The notes beneath the pieces were generated by a model. That model ran no database searches. It saw nothing but the letters and a program-made list of their open reading frames with translations, and was not told the origin of the DNA. From assembly GCA_004346725.1 (NCBI GenBank), contig SMDE01000003.1, positions 124,001 to 188,000 of the forward strand: a stretch of 64,000 nucleotides of DNA, read 5' to 3'. Both the position numbers and the translations under genes were made by a program. This DNA is from Phytobacter diazotrophicus (GTDB lineage: Bacteria > Pseudomonadota > Gammaproteobacteria > Enterobacterales > Enterobacteriaceae). Positions within the stretch are counted from its first letter, which is position 1, and every line of letters begins with the position of its first letter. Below are positions 53,600-54,934 of the stretch, one piece after another.

Positions 53600-53830
53600 T
53601 TAGATAAATTTCTGGGCCGCGGTCATAATGTCATCCGATGAAAGCTGTCGGTCAGTAGCGACACGAATCTCCAGATGATCACCGGTGAGTGAGTGAACGC
53701 CTGCGTGCATAATATTTAGGGTCGCTTTCTCGCCGTTAGGGTATTCACAATCAACGGTCTTATCGCTGGCATTTCTGTCAACAGCTTTGACTGGCTGAGA
53801 GTTGAAAAAAACCAAAACTTTTGATGTCAT
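53600..53830 (-). CDS. Small protein of unknown function
   Basis: 76 residues, MTSKVLVFFNSQPVKAVDRN at the N-terminus, supported by AAGGA 8 bases before the ATG. It has no membrane segment or cysteine motif beyond a single Cys. The pattern of alternating strands suggests a compact beta-rich fold. It lies 40 bp after the YmcF-like gene on the same strand and may be co-transcribed with the cold-shock gene. I do not recognise the family. Confidence 0.65.
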   Translation of the reverse strand: MTSKVLVFFNSQPVKAVDRNASDKTVDCEYPNGEKATLNIMHAGVHSLTGDHLEIRVATDRQLSSDDIMTAAQKFI

Positions 53831-53870: not shown

Positions 53871-54071
53871 CTATGCGATATGCGTTGCTGTGATATTTCT
53901 GACAAATGGCACAGGATGCATTGTCGCTAAATTGTAACGTTCATTGGTTACCATTACGGTTTTGCAAAAAATACATTTTGCGCCATATGGATTAGTTTCT
54001 GTTACATCAAAATGCGAAACACGATATTGCGAGCCGTGACATTTTGGACAACGAAGATGAATATTAGAAAT
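53871..54071 (-). CDS. YmcF/YnfQ-like zinc microprotein with ATT start
   Basis: 66 residues, reading (M)SNIHLRCPKCHGSQYRVS, with CPKC (C8, C11) and CIFC (C33, C36) forming a likely zinc site. It is clearly related to E. coli YmcF and YnfQ, cold-induced microproteins encoded after cspG/cspB-type genes and reported to start at ATT. No ATG, GTG or TTG exists at the right place here; the ATT at 54069-54071 lies 10 bases after AAGGA, which overlaps the cold-shock gene stop. It begins 13 bp after that gene, so it is probably the second cistron of the cold-shock transcript. Function unknown, nucleic-acid binding possible. Confidence 0.8.
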   Translation of the reverse strand: MSNIHLRCPKCHGSQYRVSHFDVTETNPYGAKCIFCKTVMVTNERYNLATMHPVPFVRNITATHIA

Positions 54072-54084
54072 AGTGAAAGTGTCC

Positions 54085-54297
54085 TTAAAGTACTACTACA
54101 TTAACAGCGGAAGGGCCTTTCGGACCGTTTTCGACTGAGAATTCAACCTCTTGATTTTCTTCAAGCGTTTTAAATTCATTGCTTTGAATAGCAGAAAAAT
54201 GCACGAATACATCTTTGCTACCATCTTTTGGAGTGATAAAACCAAAACCTTTTTCAGGGTTGAACCACTTTACGTTACCTGTCGTTTTTGAAGACAT
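54085..54297 (-). CDS. Cold-shock protein, CspA family (CspB-like)
   Basis: 70 residues, single cold-shock domain acting as RNA chaperone. RNP1 KGFGFI and RNP2 VFVHFSAI are intact, as is WFN early on. Closest by eye to E. coli CspB ([15 protein letters not shown]). The cspA-type promoter, cold box and long leader upstream show that it is genuinely cold-inducible rather than constitutive like CspC/CspE. Confidence 0.96.
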
Positions 54298-54455
54298 AAT
54301 TTTTTACCTATATAAATGTAAGCCTTTCGGCATGCAGGGTCCGATTACAGAATAATCGCATAACTTTCAATGAAGACTCAAAAAGAGATATCTAAGGATA
54401 CTTAAAATGAGGGCTAAAAATGGAATGCTTTGGACTGGTCTGTGTATCAAACCGA
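54298..54455 (-). promoter_or_regulatory. cspA-type leader with cold box
   Basis: About 158-nt 5' leader of the cold-shock gene. It starts with TCGGTTTGATACACAGACCA (54436-54455), matching the cspA cold box region, and carries GCCGAAAGGC (54322-54331) shortly before the start codon, as in cspA. Such leaders refold with temperature to permit translation in the cold. Confidence 0.88.
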
Positions 54456-54458
54456 CAA

Positions 54459-54490
54459 CTCATTAAGGCATGTCATATCCTATTATGCAA
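54459..54490 (-). promoter_or_regulatory. cspA-type promoter
   Basis: -35 TTGCAT (54485-54490) and -10 region TTAATGAG (54459-54466) separated by 18 bases, the same words and spacing as in the E. coli cspA promoter. It reads toward the cold-shock gene. Confidence 0.85.
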
Positions 54491-54763: not shown

Positions 54764-54934
54764 ATGCCACAACGCAAAGATTCAAAAAATAATCGCAACT
54801 ATCTCGTCAAATGCACCTGCCCTCACTGCACCAAACAGTCAGAACATAGCTTTACACGAGTCCAGAAAGGCTTGTCATTGATGTGCCCTCATTGCAGTAA
54901 ACTTTATAATCAAGACAAAACAGCCTTTGCTTAA
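54764..54934 (+). CDS. Small zinc-ribbon protein
   Basis: 56 residues, basic. Two CxxC pairs (CTCPHC near residue 18, CPHC near 43) make a treble-clef or ribbon-type zinc site likely. ATG at 54764 with AGGAAAG ahead; the frame is open 17 codons further upstream (54713) without a ribosome-binding site. Its CPHC spacing recalls the YmcF-like protein next door, though the sequences differ. Unknown function. Confidence 0.7.
   Translation: MPQRKDSKNNRNYLVKCTCPHCTKQSEHSFTRVQKGLSLMCPHCSKLYNQDKTAFA

Follow-up and report, generated by a model that had tools for sequence, protein, structure and literature searches.

A putative csp-ymcF-ynfN cold-shock operon of Phytobacter diazotrophicus with an inferred AUU start codon, compared with its enterobacterial relatives

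Bacterial start codons other than AUG are described as well characterised for few genes (PMC5472188), and those tied to a reason are fewer still. The closest described systems to the locus analysed here are found in Escherichia coli. In the RefSeq genome of E. coli MG1655, ymcF (1051684-1051872) lies directly behind cspG and begins with ATT, and the copy behind cspI in another E. coli strain also begins with ATT, these genes being named ymcF or ynfQ in the records. Both annotations bear out a preliminary description of the present locus, which had named ATT as the reported start of E. coli YmcF and YnfQ; the claim reportedly goes back to D'Lima and co-workers in 2017 (cited in PMC10191623). 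Annotation of ymcF from ATT extends to phage Tritos and a Salmonella plasmid record, and a Klebsiella plasmid ymcF is annotated from ATG with no csp annotated in the stretch examined. The further statement that standard gene callers miss the ATT start fails for the RefSeq E. coli, phage Tritos, and Salmonella plasmid records but agrees with a phage collection in which nine records match YmcF and six of these have no feature annotated there. Among viral contigs, five stretches fitted a pattern and none was a relative. A literature search of titles and abstract openings, outside the main source papers, retrieved neither family-wide AUU conservation nor an AUU/AUG swap, a result that speaks for that search and not for the printed literature as a whole. 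The E. coli relatives are already annotated from ATT, and the locus described below adds another member to that group.

Operon layout and protein family in the window

The window is a stretch of 64,000 nucleotides of Phytobacter diazotrophicus (assembly GCA_004346725.1, contig SMDE01000003.1, positions 124,001 to 188,000), and the putative operon lies on its minus strand. A promoter-like stretch of the csp type (TTGCAT, 17 nt, and CTTAAT in TGCCTTAATG; 54461..54490) was recognised by reading the sequence and is graded as weak because a consensus promoter scan reported other sites and not this one; a comparable stretch (TTGC ... TGCGTTAATG) is present ahead of some related csp leaders. The cold box GGTTTGATACACAGACCA (54436..54453) has no mismatch to the pattern GGTTTGANNNACAGACCA, which we take to be the cold-box consensus, and in the control, for which the upstream stretches of the 140 loci compared below were reverse-complemented, the best match had two mismatches in one stretch, three in two, and at least four in 137. 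The cspA thermoregulator RNA, comprising leader and csp coding region (54076..54456), scored 126.3 bits against Rfam RF01766 (gathering threshold 78). The cspA-type leader and cold box of the preliminary description were confirmed. The csp gene (54085..54297) encodes a 70-residue protein of the CspA family (Pfam CSD, 111 bits) with CspG and CspE as nearest models, scoring 131.6 bits with the NCBIfam CspG model (below its cut-off of 144) and 129.3 bits with the CspE model (above its cut-off of 120). The csp stop codon TAA is merged with the ymcF Shine-Dalgarno sequence in TAAGGA (54082..54087), the inferred ymcF start codon ATT (54069..54071) follows after 10 nt, and the ymcF-like gene (53871..54071) comprises 66 codons and a stop.

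A ynfN-like frame of 76 residues (53600..53830, minus strand) lies 40 nt downstream of ymcF and was assigned by its likeness to the ORF annotated ynfN in phage Tritos (47.9% identity over 96%); it had no match in Pfam or NCBIfam. Frames similar to it were found in eight phage records, and a ynfN-like frame stands on the same strand 220-285 nt past the first Cys codon of ymcF in 20 other loci. A simple terminator scan of the interval between ymcF and the ynfN-like frame of the window returned no terminator-like site. The genome of the window holds one PF23641 match and eight cold-shock-domain matches. Divergent to the csp operon is a YnfU-family zinc-binding gene on the plus strand (54764-54931; NF038384, 75.3 bits, cut-off 36), and YnfU-like frames near ymcF were seen by eye at least in L011, L083, L084, L085, L086, L090, L115, L123, and L129.

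The frame behind csp was assigned to the YmcF-like family on the basis of Pfam PF23641 (79.7 bits, cut-off 27, E=1.9e-22), and its best NCBIfam match, the ECs_2282 family, reached 23.9 and stayed under the cut-off of 37. With this match, an uninterrupted frame of 66 codons, and paired CxxC motifs, the YmcF/YnfQ homologue first read from the sequence was upheld. The nearest relatives found are those of Phytobacter ursingii (L025, 92% identity) and Kosakonia sp. S29 (L026, 88%); four cysteines and the motif CIFCK are invariant across a five-sequence alignment, and the CxxC pairs and CIFCK are conserved at the protein level in loci of 46 genus labels. AlphaFold2, run with five sequences, gave a poor model (mean pLDDT 49.4), and a search of solved structures by sequence gave no significant relative (best E 0.055). 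YnfQ has been modelled with a rubredoxin topology (PMC13348028). The 66-residue, four-cysteine protein may have a zinc-ribbon or rubredoxin-like fold, with predicted metal binding.

The ymcF frame is open from just past a TAG at 54093-54095 to the TAG at 53871-53873. Between the upstream in-frame stop and the first Cys codon there is no ATG, GTG, or TTG, and ATT 54069-54071 is the sole ATT, ATC, or ATA accepted by the Shine-Dalgarno rule, at a distance from the Shine-Dalgarno sequence 3 nt longer than the commonest spacing among the loci. The window shares with E. coli YmcF and YnfQ an ATT at Shine-Dalgarno distance in the absence of a canonical start, as the preliminary description had noted for the ATT after AAGGA; its placement of this codon at the matching position did not stand. 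Counted back from the first Cys codon, the annotated E. coli ATT is codon -8, whereas in the window codon -8 is ACT and ATT follows at -7, one codon downstream. The distance from the csp stop to the first Cys codon is 34 nt in the window and in both E. coli loci alike. Since the window and Kosakonia sp. S29 have ACT ATT and P. ursingii has ATT at both -8 and -7, the ymcF start appears to have slid by one codon between relatives.

Start codons across relatives and the state of csp

In the window's family, 131 of the 392 genomes, belonging to 45 of 154 genera, carry a PF23641 match; a sample of 394 genomes from the order yielded 21 with one, 20 of them over the cut-off. The locus set of 149 loci and the window was reduced to 140 by removing five without a frame by motif (L023, L029, L076, L090, and L142) and five duplicates (L003, L027, L028, L098, and L101), and six matches under the family cut-off in the family-wide search were left outside it. 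Start class was taken per locus from codons -12 to -3 before the first Cys. By this rule, 84 loci have ATT, ATC, or ATA without ATG, GTG, or TTG, 46 have ATG, and 10 have only GTG or TTG; the whole open stretch is free of a canonical start in 47 of the 140, spread over 19 genus labels (E. coli and g21 counted apart). The weight of a missing canonical start lies in this recurrence, since one short stretch alone without one is not improbable. Alignment of the start region across enterobacteria had been proposed as a check on the conservation of ATT: recurrence of the non-AUG start was borne out by the 84 loci, and universality was not, with 56 of the 140 offering a nearby ATG, GTG, or TTG. Assigned by Shine-Dalgarno spacing, the inferred starts in the 84 loci are ATT in 55, ATC in 21, and ATA in one, with seven lacking a Shine-Dalgarno match. 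Where the spacing is 34 nt (44 loci), codon -8 reads ATT in 28, ATC in seven, ATA in one, and another codon in eight including the window; four g207 rows of this group (three ATC, one ATA) also have ATG at -9.

A csp gene was counted as adjacent where its frame ends at most 70 nt upstream, which applied to 79 of the 140 loci (59 without a canonical start, 14 with ATG, and six with GTG or TTG). A csp-leader profile built from 78 of these (L032 left out) and applied at E < 0.01 to the 61 other loci detected a csp-type leader upstream on the correct strand in 33; a 34th match, in L081, belongs to a different csp on the opposite strand and was not counted. For 16 of the 33 (g10, g12, g158, and three from g236), 20-60 nt lie between the end of the leader match and the first Cys codon of ymcF; ymcF has therefore replaced csp there. 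Other loci have a truncated, decayed, or fused csp (L100, L074, L055, L069, and L006), with a decayed copy also in L048, and an intact csp lies further upstream in L048 and L075. A single open frame of 143 residues joins csp to ymcF in L006 (G218), and ATG occurs inside it at codon -8. A csp-type leader directly before ymcF, with no csp found between, has a cold box with one mismatch in L089, L092, L093, and L096 and with three mismatches in L099, L102, and L105, and these seven are possible stand-alone cold-shock ymcF genes.

The 33 leader loci in which csp is lost, decayed, fused, or moved have ATG in 25, GTG or TTG in four, and no canonical start in four, and the ATG stands at codon -8, usually ATT elsewhere, in 15 of the 25 and at -7 in three. 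Counted by locus with relatedness ignored, the ratio of non-canonical to canonical starts is 59:20 with csp adjacent and 4:29 in these 33 leader loci (Fisher 7e-10). By genus label, again ignoring relatedness, labels with only non-canonical and only canonical starts stand at 21:5 and 1:10, respectively (Fisher p = 8e-5; mixed labels, two with csp and one without, left out, and E. coli and g21 counted apart), five csp-intact labels using canonical starts only. Relatedness was addressed with a YmcF protein tree (140 rows and 54 columns; stars for support on 14 of its 126 inner branches) and a DNA tree built from the 112 loci with a csp leader (stars on 21 of its 108 inner branches), the 10 rows with only GTG or TTG being left out of the protein-tree start label and of one of the two DNA-tree tests. 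On starred branches, the protein tree held three independent pairs, on average 1.5 in the expected and 1.1 in the opposite direction, and the DNA tree two pairs, on average 1.6 and 0. Greedy pairing on the best DNA tree, weak branches included, gave 10 pairs with six to eight in the expected and none in the opposite direction over 200 draws, which is not proof. The association between csp state and start codon is therefore not established: the supported branches of these poorly resolved trees hold only three or two independent pairs, near even in the protein tree. Judged from the locus counts, the choice between AUU/AUC and AUG within the csp-leader lineage appears to track the state of the neighbouring csp.

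For the remaining 28 of the 140 copies no adjacent csp and, at E < 0.01, no csp leader was found, and a canonical start is missing from 21 of them; csp coupling therefore cannot be the whole reason for the non-AUG start. The same 21 copies led us to reject a rule of AUG whenever csp is absent. In five of the 28 (L070, L077, L078, L079, and L081) a csp gene does lie farther away, about 540-920 nt upstream, and three of these five have no canonical start. Thirteen of the 21 form a clade of g7, g167, and g171 with an inferred ATC start at codon -7 (stand-alone ymcF in L018, L019, L020, L121, L122, L124-L126, L130, L134, and L136-L138), in 10 of which the frame just upstream of ymcF is presumably YcgN-like, and four others (g227) have ATT. 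Because no csp leader was detected for this ATC clade and g227, a non-AUG ymcF start can persist without csp. Under the cold-shock leader, ymcF outlives csp in several genera, so that YmcF itself may be useful, and its survival after csp loss argues for a function of its own.

Coupling, IF3, and alternative explanations

Homology, gene order, the lack of a canonical start, and AUU or AUC recurring at Shine-Dalgarno distance are read directly from the sequences. The locus is probably a csp-ymcF-ynfN cold-shock operon with an AUU start coupled to csp translation, for which we infer initiation at AUU, the coupling itself, and induction in the cold. As judged from its family, the cspA-type leader would cause the mRNA to build up and to be translated at low temperature, ribosomes would finish csp at the stop codon inside the ymcF Shine-Dalgarno sequence, re-load, and begin ymcF at AUU, and translation from there would give the 66-residue, four-cysteine protein. 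Coupling is suggested because the csp stop codon sits inside the Shine-Dalgarno sequence, being followed by GG in 51 of the 79 csp-adjacent loci and not in the other 28. The AUU would most likely keep ymcF dependent on both csp translation and the cold-shocked initiation machinery. Initiation factor IF3 ordinarily selects against AUU.

Gating of the ymcF AUU by initiation factor IF3 is suggested by analogy, since IF3 is described as repressing non-canonical starts, infC itself starting at ATT (PMC5472188), and since infC auto-repression is lost at low temperature, a loss described as a major factor in the cold induction of infC (PMC6511841). The same paper gives a rise of IF3 relative to ribosomes of at least 3-fold in the cold; taken alone, stronger repression of AUU would therefore be predicted, which counts against gating. 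In vitro, more IF3 is reported to lower the product ratio for the AUU/CAU pair (PMC10158994). It is unlikely, in our estimate, that the AUU or AUC of ymcF is a selected thermal gate that IF3 shuts in the warm and the cold-shocked ribosome opens, and that becomes superfluous once csp is lost and the thermosensing leader acts on ymcF directly, AUG then replacing it at the same codon. Were this the case, genes behind csp would gain a second cold switch, and the part of the operon retained in some lineages would be YmcF rather than Csp.

The AUU might instead be simply tolerated, any near-cognate codon sufficing behind a heavily translated csp, and would then be a neutral leftover without a regulatory role. 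This account deserves real weight and is nonetheless doubted: AUC and AUA are also used, the start slides by one codon between relatives, and 14 of the 79 csp-adjacent loci have ATG, all as expected of a neutral codon, but none of the 44 equal-spacing loci has ATG, GTG, or TTG at codon -8, although a single base change turns ATT into ATG and 15 of the 33 leader loci lacking an intact adjacent csp do have ATG there. ATT also predominates over ATC and ATA more strongly at the csp-linked inferred starts (45, 6, and 1) than among the Ile codons after the first Cys in the 84 genes (136, 72, and 21), the rows in this comparison being related.

A prfB-like +1 frameshift at the csp stop (CUU U-A-A) would produce a Csp-YmcF fusion in which ATT is a plain Ile codon. 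In the window, as in both E. coli operons, the frame of ymcF is +1 to csp, the csp genes ending in CTT TAA (window), CTC TAA (cspG), and CTT TGA (cspI), and in L006 csp and ymcF occur naturally as an in-frame fusion. Against such a frameshift, the frame relation among the 59 csp-adjacent non-canonical loci is +1 in 47, 0 in nine, and +2 in three, genus g172 contains two of these relations, and 25 further non-canonical loci have no adjacent csp and thus nothing to fuse to; moreover, the usually-ATT codon is ATG in 15 of the 25 ATG copies with a csp leader and no intact adjacent csp and is therefore marked as the start. As a general rule the frameshift was rejected, the fixed +1 relation being absent and copies without csp existing; for the window alone, itself +1, it would be excluded by analogy, and overall it is considered very improbable. 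Barely credible is an untranslated ymcF frame that owes its conservation to an RNA element or a shared csp duplication, given the CxxC pairs and CIFCK kept at the protein level and the persistence of ymcF after decay or loss of csp. RNA folding near the ymcF start was unremarkable in the four sequences folded (z of 0.83, -0.30, -1.26, and -0.04), which neither helps nor excludes an RNA element.

Comparison with known systems

Close relatives within one small-protein family use either AUU or AUC, or else AUG, at a single codon, and the question of why a bad start codon is kept becomes directly testable via translational coupling and IF3 in the cold. A different small enterobacterial protein, RcsD-Hpt of Yersinia, has an AUU start shown by mutation (PMC10191623), but this is an internal start in a frameshifted gene and involves no cold-shock operon. 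The sigR gene of Streptomyces is a stress gene whose GTC start is described as repressed by IF3, the rare start limiting output (PMC5472188); codon, gene, and stress all differ from ymcF. The IF3 gene infC is cold-induced and has an AUU start that makes it IF3-sensitive (PMC5472188, PMC6511841); it shares no protein function with ymcF, and the IF3 sensitivity known for infC would extend to ymcF by analogy. The closest counterparts are E. coli YmcF behind cspG and YnfQ behind cspI, members of the same PF23641 family that lie at the same 34 nt behind csp and are annotated from ATT, the cspI copy being followed by ynfN as ymcF is by a ynfN-like frame in the window. The window differs from them in a start one codon downstream, a different C-terminus, and the finding of no terminator-like site before ynfN.
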